The notes under the pieces: model-generated | Told to the model about the DNA's origin: nothing | What the model saw: only the letters and a program-made list of their open reading frames with translations | The model's database searches: none | NCBI GenBank assembly: GCA_030531025.1 | Contig: JAUMTV010000179.1 | Span: 1 to 5,117, forward strand | DNA length: 5,117 nt | Source: Turicibacter sp. | GTDB lineage: Bacteria; Bacillota; Bacilli; MOL361; Turicibacteraceae | Direction of reading: 5' to 3' | Part shown: piece by piece, positions 1 to 5,117 of the stretch | How positions within the stretch are numbered: position 1 is the stretch's first letter | Layout of the letters: each line of letters starts with the position of its first letter | Translations under genes and position numbers: made by a program

Positions 1-60
1 TAAAAAGGACTAGAAACTGAGGATGATTCTGAAAATGTAGATTATTTCTCTGTTTATATA

Positions 61-149
61 TATATAAGTCCAGATAAGTTTTTCATATCGGAAAACTTTT
101 AGCTGGACTATAGTCTGTCTTAGCATTAAAGCAATCGATTAACTAAGAC
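61..149. repeat. Short form (A-C) of a modular structured repeat element
   Basis: The 17-base string TATATAAGTCCAGATAA at 61-77 recurs exactly at 4939-4955. Both copies continue into an AT-rich hairpin. Here, TATAAGTCCAG (63-73) pairs with CTGGACTATA (103-112) with one bulged A, enclosing an inner stem of 76-84 with 91-98. Positions 103-121 match 5072-5090 at 16 of 19 bases. The right-hand copy therefore has the same outer parts with about 90 extra bases between them, which are absent here. A further inverted repeat, GTCTTAG (117-123) with CTAAGAC (143-149), closes the likely element. A 10-base palindrome, GACTATAGTC, lies at 106-115. The exact ends and orientation cannot be fixed from two copies. 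It could be a miniature mobile repeat or an RNA motif. The repeat relationship is seen directly; mobility is inference. Confidence 0.75.
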
Positions 150-187
150 TGATGTAGAATGATGAAATACATTTCTGTTTCTATATA

Positions 188-574
188 GATGAATTATTAA
201 AAACGGCAAACATTACTCCAATGGTTAATCAAATTCGCCTTTGTCCGGGAGATACTCAAGATGAGGTCGTTAACTATTGTAAAGAGAAGCAAATATTACT
301 TGAAGCGTATAGCCCACTTGACACAGGAAAAATCTTTGAAGTTCATGAGTTACAACAAATCGCAGCTAAGTATGGAAAAAGTATTGCTCAAATTTGTATT
401 CGCTGGAGTTTACAAATGGGATTTTTACCGTTACCTAAATCTGTTCATTTTTCACGTATCGATGAAAATTCACAAGTGTTTGACTTTACTTTAGATGATT
501 ACGATATGAAATTGATTACAAATCTTAAAGGGTGTGTTGGTTATTCACGTAACCCAGATGAAACAGATTTTTAA
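188..574 (+). pseudogene. Aldo/keto reductase, C-terminal fragment
   Basis: This encodes the C-terminal part of an NAD(P)H-dependent aldo/keto reductase of the 2,5-diketogluconate/glyoxal reductase type. Family-like sequence starts upstream of the first ATG, at about codon 188 (DELLKTANITP before MVNQI at 221), with an in-frame stop at 155-157. The reading frame is therefore a remnant rather than a gene that begins at 221. Visible family landmarks are VNQI (usually VNQIE.HP, here followed by RLCPG), EAYSPL, the IAQICIRW helix, and the cofactor-binding stretch PLPKSVHFSRIDEN near residues 72-85 counted from 221. About 128 residues remain of the usual 270-280. The N-terminal barrel half with the catalytic Asp, Tyr, Lys and His is absent. 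No ribosome binding site precedes ATG 221. The break lies just downstream of the repeat element at 61-149. It is probably non-functional; a very short truncated protein from 221 is possible but cannot form the active site. Confidence 0.8.
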
Positions 575-834: not shown

Positions 835-1398
835 ATGTCAGAATCATTAATTACGAAAAAGGCGATTGCCAATACGCTAAAAGAATTCACACAACAAAAG
901 CCATTTTCTAAAATTTCAATTCGTGATCTAACAACTACTTGTGGATTAAATCGTCAGACCTTTTATTATCATTTTCAAGATAAATATGAGTTATTAAATT
1001 GGATTTATGAACAAGAAGGTTTTATTCCATTAATGAATGGAATTACATTAGAAAACTGGCACCTAAAAGTGATGCAACTGTTAGAATATATGAAACAAGA
1101 GCAACGTTTTTACTATGAAACGATTTACCATGACGAATGTCATTTTCGAAATCATTTATTAAACATTACAACACACTTATTTAAAGAAGCTATTCAACGA
1201 CTAGATGAGCGTCAGATGACTGCTTTAGAAGAACAACAATTTATTGCAGAGTTTTTTGCTTATGGGGTCAGCGGAATGATTGTTTCATGGGTTAAATCAG
1301 GAATGAAGCAAGCACCTTCTGAGTTAGCCACTCAATTAAAAGGCATTGCCATCAAATGTGAAAAGTTAGCTTATGTGAGATATCAAGAGGATTTTTAA
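835..1398 (+). CDS. TetR/AcrR-family transcriptional regulator, DhaS-like
   Basis: This is a dimeric DNA-binding regulator of 187 residues, a normal length for the family. The N-terminal helix-turn-helix spans about residues 10-55. It contains the typical ISIRDLTTTCGLNRQTFYYH recognition segment, followed by FQDKYELLNWIY. The rest is the helical ligand-binding and dimerisation domain. Its end, FFAYGVSGMIVSWVKSGM (about residues 140-157), is characteristic of the subgroup annotated as dihydroxyacetone kinase regulator DhaS or TetR C-terminal domain 8. That subgroup name does not prove a role in dihydroxyacetone use. The start at ATG 835 is supported by GAGGG (823-827) seven bases upstream. The gene has its own promoter and a terminator at 1398-1427, and lies directly before the oleate hydratase gene. 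It is therefore the best candidate for controlling that gene through the inverted repeats at 1438-1492. The ligand may be an unsaturated fatty acid or acyl derivative; that is inference from the neighbour. Confidence 0.92.
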   Translation: MSESLITKKAIANTLKEFTQQKPFSKISIRDLTTTCGLNRQTFYYHFQDKYELLNWIYEQEGFIPLMNGITLENWHLKVMQLLEYMKQEQRFYYETIYHDECHFRNHLLNITTHLFKEAIQRLDERQMTALEEQQFIAEFFAYGVSGMIVSWVKSGMKQAPSELATQLKGIAIKCEKLAYVRYQEDF

Positions 1399-1427
1399 AA
1401 GCTGTTAGATTCGCCTAACAGCTTTTT
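1398..1427 (+). terminator. Rho-independent terminator after the TetR gene
   Basis: GCTGTTAG (1401-1408) pairs with CTAACAGC (1415-1422) across a six-base loop. A-rich sequence precedes the stem and a T tract follows to 1427. It overlaps the last base of the stop codon and separates the regulator transcript from the hydratase transcript. Confidence 0.9.
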
Positions 1428-1437
1428 AAATTGTTTT

Positions 1438-1492
1438 TTAGACAGTTTTTATAAAGTGTCTAATTACTAGACATTCCGAATTTTTTGTCTAA
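1438..1492. promoter_or_regulatory. Tandem inverted-repeat operator upstream of ohyA
   Basis: Four TAGACA/TGTCTA half-sites form two inverted repeats of the same geometry. The first pairs TTAGACA (1438-1444) with TGTCTAA (1457-1463) across 12 bases. The second pairs TAGACA (1468-1473) with TGTCTA (1486-1491), also across 12 bases. The units repeat every 29 bases. The two inner half-sites also form the palindrome TGTCTAATTACTAGACA (1457-1473), and the whole array is symmetric about position 1465. The last half-site lies at the -35 region of the hydratase promoter. This is typical of a TetR-family operator, and the TetR gene just upstream is the obvious binder. The repeats are seen directly; the binder and the repressing effect are inferred. 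Confidence 0.75.
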
Positions 1493-1520
1493 ATGCATTT
1501 TTAATGTGTGGTGATATATT
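1493..1520 (+). promoter_or_regulatory. Probable extended -10 promoter of ohyA
   Basis: TGATATATT (1512-1520) fits an extended -10 element (TG, one base, then TATATT at 1515-1520). The -35 region at the right spacing is poor (ATGCAT, 1493-1498), as expected for an extended -10 promoter. It directly abuts the last operator half-site, so a bound regulator would hinder polymerase. A second TATAAC at 1526-1531 is a weaker alternative. Confidence 0.5.
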
Positions 1521-1543
1521 AGAGGTATAACTTTAAAGGTGAC

Positions 1544-1548
1544 GGAGG
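1544..1548 (+). promoter_or_regulatory. Ribosome binding site deciding the ohyA start
   Basis: GGAGG here is only two bases from ATG 1551, eight bases from GTG 1557, and lies inside any frame begun at GTG 1539. The spacing favours GTG 1557 as the start. ATG 1551 remains possible and would add only Met-Arg. Confidence 0.65.
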
Positions 1549-1556
1549 TTATGAGA

Positions 1557-3269
1557 GTGAAAAAGAAATCAACTAAAACATTAATGGCGACAACAGCATT
1601 AGTAGGGGTAGCTACTGCTATTGGGGCTAAAAAGTATTATGAATTAAAAGAGCAATCAGCTACATCGGATTTAAGTGAAGGCATCGATTTAAATCGTGAC
1701 GTTTATTTTATCGGTGGTGGGCTAGCTTCACTTGCTGGAGCTGCTTATTTAGTGAGAGATTGCCATATGCCTGGGGAACAAATTCATATCATTGAAGGGA
1801 TGCCGATTTTAGGTGGAAGTAACGATGGAGCGGGAAATGTTCAAAATGGATTTGTTTGCCGTGGAGGACGTATGTTAAATGAAGAAACCTATGAAAACTT
1901 TTGGGAACTGTTTTCATCAATTCCGTCACTTGAAATGCCACATATGAGTGTGACAGAGGAAATATTGAATTTTGATCATTTACATCCAACACATGCTCAA
2001 GCTCGTCTAATTGATAAAGAGGGAACTATCTTAGATGTGACAAGTATGGGATTCAATACAGAGGATCGCTTAGCATTAGGAAAATTAATGGTAACACCAG
2101 AAGAAAACTTAGATGATATGACGATTGAGGAATGGTTCGCTCATACGCCACATTTCTTCGAAACAAACTTCTGGTATATGTGGCAAACAACATTTGCGTT
2201 CCAAAAATGGTCAAGCTTATTTGAATTCAAACGCTACATGGAACGTATGATTTTTGAATTTTCACGTATTGAAACACTCGAAGGTGTGACGCGTACGCCA
2301 TATAATCAATATGAATCAGTTATCTTACCGTTAAAAGTGTTCTTAGATGAGCATGGAGTAGATTTCAGTATTAATGCGACGGTCACAGATATTGATTTTG
2401 CTAAAGGAGAAGGAATTACAGCAACAGCCATTCACCTTGAACGCCATGGGGTAGAGGAAATCATCCATTTAAATAAAGGTGATTTATGTATCATGACTAA
2501 TGCATGTATGACTGACTGCGCTACACTTGGAGATATGACAACCGCTCCTGAATATAACCCTAATAACCCAATCTCAGGAGATTTATGGGCTAAAATCGCG
2601 GATAAAAAACCGGGGCTTGGAAACCCTGAACCATTCTTTGGAAAGCCTGAAGAAACCAATTGGGAAAGCTTTACGGTAACATGTAAAGGAAATAAATTAT
2701 TAAAATTAATTGAAAAATTCTCAGGAAATATCCCTGGTAGCGGGGCTTTAATGACGTTCAAAGATTCAAATTGGTTAATGAGTATTGTTGTCGCGGCGCA
2801 ACCTCATTTTAAAAATCAACCAATGGATACAACAATCTTTTGGGGATATGGATTATACACAGATAAAGTAGGAGACTATGTCAATAAACCAATGCGTGAA
2901 TGTACTGGAGAAGAATTATTAATTGAATTACTTCATCATTTACATTTTGAAGATCAAATCGATGAAATTATGGATACAGTCGTAAATGTCATTCCATGTA
3001 TGATGCCATATGTTGACGCGCAATTCCAACCACGTAAAATGACAGACCGTCCACAAGTCGTTCCAGCTGGATCAACCAACTTTGCCATGATCAGTCAATT
3101 CGTAGAAATTCCAGAAGACATGGTCTTCACTGAAGAATACTCAGTTCGTGCCGCACGTATCGCAGTTTATACGTTGATGAATTATAAAGAAAAACAAATC
3201 TGTCCTGTCACACCATATAAGAGAAATCCAAAAGTATTAAAAGATGCGTTAAAAAAAGCATACCGTTAA
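1557..3269 (+). CDS. ohyA: Oleate hydratase (fatty acid double-bond hydratase, MCRA family)
   Basis: This FAD-dependent enzyme adds water to the cis-9 double bond of oleate and related unsaturated fatty acids to give 10-hydroxy fatty acids. FAD is structural rather than redox-consumed. The product has 570 residues from GTG 1557, usual for the family. The dinucleotide-binding motif is IGGGLASLAGAAYLVRD (about 52-68), followed by IIEG (78-81) for the FAD ribose and GGSNDGAG (86-93). The CRGGRM motif at 101-106 corresponds to the family's RGGRE, where Glu is catalytic in the best-studied enzymes; here it is Met106. Tyr227 (in FKRYM) and Gln251 (in RTPYNQYES) are 24 residues apart, matching the catalytic Tyr241 and Gln265 of the Elizabethkingia enzyme. 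The C-terminal cofactor motif VPAGSTNFAMISQF is present. Residues 9-24 (LMATTALVGVATAIGA), preceded by several Lys, form a hydrophobic segment that may anchor the protein at the membrane. The gene is monocistronic, probably controlled by the upstream TetR regulator. Confidence 0.95.
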   Translation: MKKKSTKTLMATTALVGVATAIGAKKYYELKEQSATSDLSEGIDLNRDVYFIGGGLASLAGAAYLVRDCHMPGEQIHIIEGMPILGGSNDGAGNVQNGFVCRGGRMLNEETYENFWELFSSIPSLEMPHMSVTEEILNFDHLHPTHAQARLIDKEGTILDVTSMGFNTEDRLALGKLMVTPEENLDDMTIEEWFAHTPHFFETNFWYMWQTTFAFQKWSSLFEFKRYMERMIFEFSRIETLEGVTRTPYNQYESVILPLKVFLDEHGVDFSINATVTDIDFAKGEGITATAIHLERHGVEEIIHLNKGDLCIMTNACMTDCATLGDMTTAPEYNPNNPISGDLWAKIADKKPGLGNPEPFFGKPEETNWESFTVTCKGNKLLKLIEKFSGNIPGSGALMTFKDSNWLMSIVVAAQPHFKNQPMDTTIFWGYGLYTDKVGDYVNKPMRECTGEELLIELLHHLHFEDQIDEIMDTVVNVIPCMMPYVDAQFQPRKMTDRPQVVPAGSTNFAMISQFVEIPEDMVFTEEYSVRAARIAVYTLMNYKEKQICPVTPYKRNPKVLKDALKKAYR

Positions 3270-3402: not shown

Positions 3403-4698
3403 ATGGATGAAGATAGAAGATATCTCATATTAATTTCATTAGATGCTGTTGGAATGGAAGACTTAAAAGTATTAAAAAATCTTCCTAATTTCTCAGCATT
3501 ACTAAAACGAGGAAGTCTGATTACTGATGTTGAGAGTATTTATCCTTCGTTAACGTACCCAGCTCATACGAGTATCATTACAGGAAAGTATCCGAAACAT
3601 CATGGTATTATAAATAACACAAAGTTAGAACGAAATTTAAACCATCCCGATTGGTATTGGTATCATAAAGATATTAAAGGAAAGACATTGTATGACGTAG
3701 CAGAAGAAAAAGGAATGAAGACATGTTCAATTTTATGGCCAGTTACCGCAAGAAGTCACATTACTTACAATATGCCCGAGATTTTCGATACGAAAAAGTG
3801 GCATAATCAACTTTGGCGGTCACTTACTTCAGGAAGTCTAAGTTATCAATTAAAGATGTTAAAGTATCTTAAGCTCATTGAAAAAGGAATGACGAGACCA
3901 GCCTTTGACCAATTTACAACGGAAGTAGCTTGCGAGACGATTAAAGCATATCAACCGCAATTGCTAATGCTTCATTTACTTGATTTAGATATGTATAAAC
4001 ATGATCAAGGGCTTAATCCCAAGATGCTTAAAGAGGTACTTTCAAGATTTGATTCGCAGCTTAGAAAAATAATTGATAGTTTAAAGGAAGCGAATATTTA
4101 TGAAAAAACTGTGATTGCTGTTATGGGAGATCATACGCAATTAGAAGTGTCAAAGTTGATTCGATTAAATACCCTCTTTATTCAAAAAGGCTGGTTAAAA
4201 GTTGATACAAAAGGACGTCTGAAATCATATGACGTGTTAGCTAAAAGTTGTGACGGTAGTACGTATATTTATTTAAAAAATGCGTTGCTTAAACATCAAG
4301 TCAGACAAGTACTTGAACAAGTTGAAGGCATTGAATGTATTTTAGAAAAAAATGAAATTAAAATTTTAGGGGCCGATGCACAAGCCGATTTTATGGTGGA
4401 GGCGAAGAAGGAATATTACTTTGTCGATGAGACATCAGGTGATTTGATAGAAAGTATCCATCAAGCAAGTGATGGGAACGTTCACCGCTATAAGGCGTGC
4501 CATGGCTATTTGCCAACGAAAGCGAATTATCAAACCTTTTTACTCATGAGTGGAGTAGGTATTAAACAAGGATATACGGTTAAAGGTGGTTCATTGATTG
4601 ATCATGCACCAACGTTTGCTAAAATTTTAGGATTAGAGTTAAAAGAGATGGATGGAAAAGCAAGACTTTGGATTTTTGATGAAGAGGTAACACCATAA
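3403..4698 (+). CDS. Alkaline phosphatase superfamily protein (type I phosphodiesterase/nucleotide pyrophosphatase-like)
   Basis: This is a metal-dependent phosphodiesterase or pyrophosphatase-like enzyme of 431 residues. The two-zinc site of the superfamily is readable in order: Asp14 in ISLDAVG; nucleophile Thr51 in PSLTYPAHTSIITG, the ENPP-type motif; Asp196 and His200 in DMYKHDQG (DxxxHxxG); Asp243 and His244 in GDHT; and His367 in CHGYLP. All expected metal ligands and the nucleophile are present, so it should be active. The usual DHGM is DHTQ here. There is no signal peptide or membrane segment, so it is probably cytoplasmic, unlike secreted ENPP enzymes. The substrate cannot be told from sequence; nucleotides, nucleotide sugars and phospholipid headgroups are all possible. 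The start at ATG 3403 is supported by GGAG (3390-3393) nine bases upstream. The gene stands alone between two terminators, so its place after ohyA does not show a shared operon. Confidence 0.88.
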   Translation: MDEDRRYLILISLDAVGMEDLKVLKNLPNFSALLKRGSLITDVESIYPSLTYPAHTSIITGKYPKHHGIINNTKLERNLNHPDWYWYHKDIKGKTLYDVAEEKGMKTCSILWPVTARSHITYNMPEIFDTKKWHNQLWRSLTSGSLSYQLKMLKYLKLIEKGMTRPAFDQFTTEVACETIKAYQPQLLMLHLLDLDMYKHDQGLNPKMLKEVLSRFDSQLRKIIDSLKEANIYEKTVIAVMGDHTQLEVSKLIRLNTLFIQKGWLKVDTKGRLKSYDVLAKSCDGSTYIYLKNALLKHQVRQVLEQVEGIECILEKNEIKILGADAQADFMVEAKKEYYFVDETSGDLIESIHQASDGNVHRYKACHGYLPTKANYQTFLLMSGVGIKQGYTVKGGSLIDHAPTFAKILGLELKEMDGKARLWIFDEEVTP

Positions 4699-4728: not shown

Positions 4729-4777
4729 AATGAAAAAAGCAGGATTTTTAGCATGATTTCGTAAAGATGAAAGAATA

Positions 4778-4806
4778 TTGTTTAAATTTAAACATAGATT
4801 TTAATA
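4778..4806 (+). promoter_or_regulatory. Possible promoter containing a 14-base palindrome
   Basis: TTGTTT (4778-4783) could serve as a -35, with a weak AT-rich -10 around 4800-4806. The perfect palindrome GTTTAAATTTAAAC (4780-4793) overlaps the -35 and spacer, the position of a repressor site. AT-rich palindromes also arise by chance. It would drive the short frame at 4833. Confidence 0.3.
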
Positions 4807-4832
4807 GAGTTTAATAAAGTTGAGGTGTGAAT

Positions 4833-4955
4833 ATGGAACTTTTAGAAATGATTCAAGAAGTATTTAGTGAAGAAAATTATAACCGTCGTTTAAATCATAC
4901 GATGGTTAATGAAGTTAGGAATCTATCATTGTCAGAATTATATAAGTCCAGATAA
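4833..4955 (+). pseudogene. 5' end of an unrecognised gene, cut off by the repeat element
   Basis: A 40-codon frame begins MELLEMIQEVFSEENYNRR and ends ...LSELYKSR. It has a good ribosome binding site, GAGGTG (4822-4827), five bases before ATG 4833, and a possible promoter upstream. The first 35 codons look like ordinary coding sequence. The last codons (from about 4939) and the stop lie inside the repeat element shared with 61-77. This suggests that a longer gene was interrupted, with the element supplying the stop. It could instead be a genuine small protein whose end coincides with the element. I recognise no family. Confidence 0.5.
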
Positions 4956-4980
4956 ATTTTCTTCATAGAAAATTTTTAAG

Positions 4981-5023
4981 CCCTAGCAGTGGAGTAAACA
5001 TGCTTCGCATGCTAGGTGACCCC
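4981..5023. repeat. B module, first copy
   Basis: This module begins CCCTAGCAG.GGAG and ends AGGTGACCCC, both shared with the second copy. CCTAG (4982-4986) pairs with CTAGG (5012-5016), and CATGC (4999-5003) with GCATG (5007-5011) around a TTC loop. The trailing GGTGACC is itself a near-palindrome. Confidence 0.7.
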
Positions 5024-5025
5024 TT

Positions 5026-5072
5026 CCCTACCAGCGGAGGATACATTTACTTCGTAAATGGCAGGTGACCCC
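5026..5072. repeat. B module, second copy
   Basis: This module begins CCCTACCAG.GGAGG and ends AGGTGACCCC. CATTTAC (5044-5050) pairs with GTAAATG (5054-5060) around the same TTC loop as the first copy, though the stem sequence is different and two pairs longer. The outer stem is CCT-A-C (5027-5031) with G-C-AGG (5061-5065), including one mismatch. Conserved flanks with changed but still paired stems indicate selection or copying of structure. Confidence 0.7.
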
Positions 5073-5117
5073 TGGACGATAGGGTGTCTTTATAAATAAA
5101 GGATATCAGTATTTTTG

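Follow-up and report, generated by a model that had tools for sequence, protein, structure and literature searches.

The window analysed here, that is, the whole 5117-base stretch of DNA, contains five reading frames of interest, all of them on the + strand, together with two copies of a modular repeat, one towards each edge. Its features, all in the same orientation, are the following:

61–121, + strand: left copy of the repeat, A-C form, a 61-nt core with no B module (from the ungapped match to the right copy and the RNA fold)
182–574 (frame 158–574), + strand: 5'-truncated aldo/keto reductase (PF00248), downstream of the left copy
835–1398, + strand: TetR-family regulator
1539–3269, + strand: oleate hydratase
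3403–4698, + strand: type I phosphodiesterase
4833–4955, + strand: 40-codon open reading frame, ending within module A of the right copy, which provides its final codons and stop
4939–5090, + strand: right copy of the repeat, A-B-B-C form, 152 nt (from the ungapped match after omission of the insert and the RNA fold)

The aldo/keto reductase is missing its beginning: similarity to a 283-aa relative starts at about residue 154, corresponding to base 182 and lying 60 nt away from the left core, and the first half of the gene was not found within the first 700 bases of the window. The oleate hydratase has its nearest named relative in Turicibacter sanguinis (88%, covering 96% of the query), and for this reason we describe the source as Turicibacter-like; the phosphodiesterase is less clear in this respect, its nearest named relative being from Clostridium septicum (51%). 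The TetR-family protein scores 120.3 bits for DhaS, the dihydroxyacetone kinase activator, which is just under the NCBIfam cut-off of 129. Ahead of the ATG of the 40-codon frame a ribosome-binding-like site (GAGGTG) can be recognised by eye; the frame has no Pfam or NCBIfam match and a single PHROG match (E 0.073), and, judging from its sequence, it is possibly a gene shortened by the right element. The frames upstream of both copies enter the element and terminate in it, as is expected by chance in an AT-rich stretch. Taken together, the truncated aldo/keto reductase and the 40-codon frame ending in module A are compatible with insertion or decay around the element, and do not amount to proof of it.

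The modules that make up the two copies are arranged as follows:

61–77, + strand: 5' part of module A, left copy, 17 nt, exact (TATATAAGTCCAGATAA)
76–98, + strand: A hairpin of the left copy, 9 bp (minimum-energy fold)
103–121, + strand: module C of the left copy; CTGGAC (103–108) pairs with GTCCAG (68–73)
4939–4955, + strand: 5' part of module A, right copy, 17 nt, exact (TATATAAGTCCAGATAA)
4954–4975, + strand: A hairpin of the right copy, 9 bp (minimum-energy fold)
4981–5025, + strand: module B1, 45 nt (placed by its CCCTA start and the B1/B2 alignment)
5026–5072, + strand: module B2, about 47 nt; one C at the 3' border is shared with module C
5072–5090, + strand: module C of the right copy; CTGGAC (5072–5077) pairs with GTCCAG (4946–4951)

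Once 91 nt (4982–5072) are omitted from the right copy, it matches the left copy without gaps at 48 of 61 positions; omitting 4981–5071 in their place scores equally. In like-for-like controls, the highest value elsewhere on the + strand is 33 of 61, and that among 100 shuffled windows 37 of 61. Because of this ungapped match the left copy can be described as A-C and the right copy as A-insert-C, which bears out the A-C and A-B-B-C copies that the first-pass annotation had proposed. Similarly, a local alignment of the two edges of the window (1–200 versus 4900–5117) scores 50, the maximum over 2000 shuffle pairs being 36. The 17 bases of module A that had been reported as exact are indeed identical in both copies, and TATATAAGTCCAGATAA, searched with up to three mismatches, has only two matches in the window, a result obtained in 0 of 200 shuffles. 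Module C agrees at 16 of 19 positions (103–121 versus 5072–5090), as had also been noted; it is the weaker part when taken alone, as 1 of 2000 shuffle pairs attains its local score, and the chance figure from its pattern search is not independent, as the pattern was derived from the two copies themselves. The outer limits had been drawn too widely: the left copy was given as 61–149 and the right one as reaching 5117, and the shared core ends at 121 and at 5090. Of the hairpin said to follow module A in both copies, it is the 9-bp pairing that is kept and the sequence that differs (by eye, both partners differ in two pairs and a single partner in one). The two cores lie in the same orientation and are separated by a 4817-nt segment. 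The difference in architecture, A-C in one copy and A-B-B-C in the other, is thus real, and the repeat is modular, structured and not a product of chance.

The B block has one position only, flanked by the A hairpin and module C, which is empty in the left copy and filled in the right one. It consists of two tandem, diverged units, each opened by CCCTA (4981 and 5026) and each containing GGTGACCCC (5015 and 5064); GGAG and ACAT are conserved between them, and their alignment scores 34, compared with a maximum of 23 over 2000 shuffle pairs. The insert has a G+C content of 53%, versus 34% for the window. Of the lengths originally assigned to the B modules, 43 and 47 bases, the second holds approximately and the first has to be corrected to 45 nt. 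The ends of the element form a short, imperfect inverted repeat with one indel, which by eye can be given either as TATAAGTCCAG versus the complement of CTGGACTATA or as TATAAGTCCAG versus the complement of CTGGACTATAG. We saw no target-site duplication: the 12-nt flanks of each core, whose borders are approximate, share nothing longer than 3 nt.

Both copies fold well as + strand RNA, with a z of -4.47 for 61–121 and again for 4939–5088, and with 0 of 200 shuffles as stable in either case. The corresponding - strand RNAs give z -2.97 (equalled by 1 of 200 shuffles) and z -2.61 (by 5 of 200). Under a DNA model, the left copy (61–125) has z -4.54 on the + and -3.26 on the - strand, and the right copy (4939–5085) -3.04 and -3.79, respectively; because the right copy as DNA is more stable on the - strand, we claim a + strand preference for the RNA only. 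The pairing of the ends through GTCCAG and CTGGAC, which had been predicted for both copies, is recovered in the + strand RNA with pair probabilities of 1.0 in the left copy and 0.98–0.99 in the right one. Enclosed by this stem, the left RNA folds as a single long hairpin with an internal loop, and the right RNA as a four-way junction formed by the closing stem, the A hairpin, B1 and B2. The DNA model leaves the closing stem out of the minimum-energy fold of the right copy. The right module C can also be drawn as a rival hairpin, CCCT-GGACGAT-AGGG (5070–5084), followed by a T-rich stretch, to which the RNA ensemble gives a probability of 0.007.

In the favoured RNA fold of the B modules, CCTA(G/C)CA pairs with TG(C/G)(T/C)AGG, and G(U/C)GGAG pairs with CUUCG(C/U), the GGAG-CUUC pairing having a probability of about 0.99 in the + strand RNA when B1 and B2 are each folded alone. 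Comparing B1 with B2 by eye, one pair of this fold has changed in both partners and two in a single partner, and B2 has one broken pair (A opposite C); the consensus fold computed on the alignment of the B modules has both-sided changes in 2 of 12 pairs. This apparent retention of pairing despite sequence change in the A and B stems is suggestive, and with two sequences only it is not proof of selection. The modules contain, in addition, a second hairpin that has this same CTTCG at its tip, namely CATGC-TTC-GCATG in B1 and CATTTAC-TTC-GTAAATG in B2, the arms of which differ between the two units yet are perfectly paired in each. In the RNA model its closing pair has a probability of 0.0 (B1) and 0.003 (B2), and a fold containing it is less stable by 12.6 kcal/mol (B1) and 9.0 kcal/mol (B2). 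The DNA model chooses it on both strands of B2; in B1, the hairpin described first persists on the forward strand, and all that forms on the reverse strand is a 3-bp tip around GAA. The small stem with a GAA/TTC loop that had been ascribed to the B modules is therefore present as one of two competing hairpins, and in the RNA model it is the less favoured of the two. According to these models each B module has a choice between two hairpins that exclude one another, a detail that is new here and that may be a switch or a by-product. These predicted folds could also be read as those of a modular RNA element, specific to the lineage, whose B modules each act as a switch with two states, one form serving the RNA and the other extruded or single-stranded DNA, for instance in mobilisation; this reading seems to us quite unlikely. 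On its - strand, B1 (4981–5025) contains GCGAAGC, a sequence known as an unusually stable DNA mini-hairpin.

We looked for further copies in viral contigs, phages, plasmids and Bacilli genomes, none of them known to be Turicibacter, and saw no third credible one in these collections. In the viral contigs, a 14-mer of module A occurs in at least 120 stretches and the 17-mer has 16 matches; the spacing of A and C that corresponds to 0, 1 and 2 B modules has 27, 14 and 19 matches, respectively, C plus the end of B has one, the B..B pattern has one and the B module pattern has none. These matches we treat as chance, since the surrounding 30 to 600 nt, inspected by eye, do not have an A hairpin followed by a correctly placed C. 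The right element has no match in phages at E 1, and in plasmids it has a single 22-nt match (E 0.4), found in four Lysinibacillus records and falling within the AT-rich A hairpin, which we also attribute to chance. By blastn at E 0.01 the window edges are unmatched, 1–200 in plasmids and phages and 4750–5117 in plasmids.

Genome sequences were approached in several ways. The phosphodiesterase found five relatives among genome contigs and, because the best identity was 44%, it is a poor query for genomes of this lineage. In another search, three of five genomes gave matches, the best at E 0.147, which we regard as noise. In a class draw of 398 genomes the oleate hydratase was found at E 1e-100 in 52, with a protein identity of at most 76%. 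When the whole window was searched as DNA, matches of more than 1 kb to the oleate hydratase gene reached at most 71% in this class draw, and those in a phylum draw of 398 at most 69%; because scoring was confined to the top two candidates in each genome, these whole-window searches do not test the element. The element itself was searched against 240 of 319 class-draw genomes (397 minus 78, the 78 comprising the 52 in which the oleate hydratase was matched, 8 genomes of at least 3.4 Mb, 17 from the search of the family of G170, and G394) and gave one match, 27 nt long (E 0.0056). In the family of G170, short matches were present at E 0.1 in 40 of the 151 genomes, the best at 0.0027 over 25 nt. 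A protein search with the translated B modules gave no candidate. Because no searched genome is known to carry the element, these empty genome searches set no limit on its distribution in Turicibacter. The Rfam 15 covariance models have no match in the window at gathering scores and seven up to E 10, none of which overlaps either copy, in line with the initial suggestion that the family may be undescribed. Likewise, among the matches listed for the Turicibacter literature on repeats or RNA, we found no earlier description on point.

The closest known parallel in architecture that we consider is that of the pneumococcal BOX elements (boxA-boxB(n)-boxC), which, in the part of PMC3049150 used here, have fixed A and C ends, a variable number of tandem B modules that fold largely independently of A and C, and a size of 67–637 bp. 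The logic of a variable B between fixed ends, which the first-pass annotation had invoked, is matched by the present element in several respects: (i) the modular order is A-B(n)-C, with n = 0 and n = 2 in our two copies; (ii) A-C pairing is combined with an independently folding B; and (iii) the 152 nt of the right copy are comparable in size to the BOX range given in that part of the source, the A-C form of 61 nt falling just under it. In contrast, (i) the module sequences are dissimilar, by eye, to the BOX consensus; (ii) the lineage is a different one; and (iii) target-site duplication, as described above, is not seen here. The BOX-related elements of S. suis, for which the same part of PMC3049150 describes the additional modules boxD, E and F (E and F averaging 115 and 133 nt), also resemble our element in following a modular scheme with other module sequences, but they are streptococcal. 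Our element is built like BOX, and we do not claim it to be BOX. Other small repeats offer more limited likenesses. bcr1 and other small Bacillus cereus repeats are small structured interspersed repeats of a Bacillota, and our element resembles bcr1 in being a small structured repeat; A-B(n)-C modularity is not known from these B. cereus repeats. The GGAG tetranucleotide near a hairpin in B recalls the tags of REP palindromes, but here it lies inside the module and is paired in the favoured RNA fold, and we know of no REPs with closing A-C ends.

The reading that we favour, with somewhat more confidence than doubt, is that both copies represent a BOX-like miniature repeat, modular and non-coding, carried by a Turicibacter-like genome and probably an undescribed repeat of this lineage. 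Of the interpretation originally offered, the BOX-like modular build and the lack of a named Rfam counterpart stand as observed, and they suggest a family that may be mobile. A coincidental resemblance between the copies is practically negligible: AT-rich sequence does yield many short repeats (there are 23 direct families in the window), and module C alone is within reach of the shuffles, but the edge and B1/B2 scores exceed all 2000 shuffle pairs, and neither like-for-like control comes near 48 of 61. It is unlikely, if well short of negligible, that we are dealing with a lineage-specific cis-regulatory or small structured RNA, riboswitch-like, non-mobile and present at few loci, in which the B modules are repeated sensor or protein-binding hairpins. 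Such an RNA would suit the stronger RNA fold on the + strand, the direction of the identified genes of the window, as well as the two competing hairpins carried by B and the GGAG and ACAT retained in both B modules. Against it, neither the gathering scores nor the seven weaker Rfam matches place a known RNA on either copy; no shared downstream gene is visible, the left copy preceding the truncated aldo/keto reductase and the right one standing at the end of the window; and no strong terminator follows the element, the weak terminator-like site at 5070–5084 being the only one.

The position of the copies, in the same orientation and one on either side of a 4817-nt segment holding the end of the aldo/keto reductase and the TetR-family, oleate hydratase and phosphodiesterase genes, would also suit direct repeats, att-like or left as recombination scars, that delimit a single segment of 4.8 kb, either mobile or amplified, and do not belong to a dispersed family. 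We consider this improbable: there is no integrase or transposase in the five Pfam-scanned frames, no tRNA was found, a difference consisting of a tandem hairpin insert is not expected of att repeats, and a TetR-like frame beside oleate hydratase exists also in another genome (L138), so that these two genes may be an ordinary pair. The inverted-repeat ends and the truncated neighbour could in turn indicate the ends of an insertion sequence, an IStron or an intron relic, and a group I intron akin to IStron introns is described in two Turicibacter strains in the part of PMC4227781 used here; we give little credit to this origin, as Rfam returned no group I or II intron match, the edges had no blastn match at E 0.01 in the collections given above, and the right element has no phage match and, in plasmids, only the 22-nt match in four records.

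A BOX-like miniature repeat of the kind we favour would be non-autonomous and depend for its spread on a transposase that acts in trans and recognises the A/C ends, and its number of B modules would change through slippage or unequal recombination between the tandem units. Such a variable number would be explained because B leaves the A-C closing stem undisturbed. A transcribed copy would fold as a hairpin (A-C) or as a four-way junction (A-B-B-C), and the folded transcript could alter the stability or the read-through of its host transcript.

BOX-type modular repeats are, in the part of PMC3049150 used here, confined to a few streptococci. If an unrelated family of Turicibacter shares the A-B(n)-C logic, this architecture arose more than once, and its repeated origin would point to an advantage of closing the ends in a stem and expanding hairpins within it, whether for what the element does or for how it moves. 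Such a family, if it exists, would also be useful for typing strains and would add to the regulatory variation of a genus common in the gut.

Two minor observations concern the segment between the copies. For the phosphodiesterase and the oleate hydratase alike, the closest cluster (98% and 99%, respectively) gives 4819 nt as the length of its longest contig, the distance between our cores being 4817 nt, as if other assemblies also broke at the repeats; this is a weak hint, the unrelated cluster P0089 having the identical value. The TetR-family gene lies directly upstream of the oleate hydratase gene (835–3269 in the window) and a similar-looking arrangement, judged by eye, occurs in the genome of L138 (742–3156), which suggests that the two form a conserved regulator-enzyme pair.
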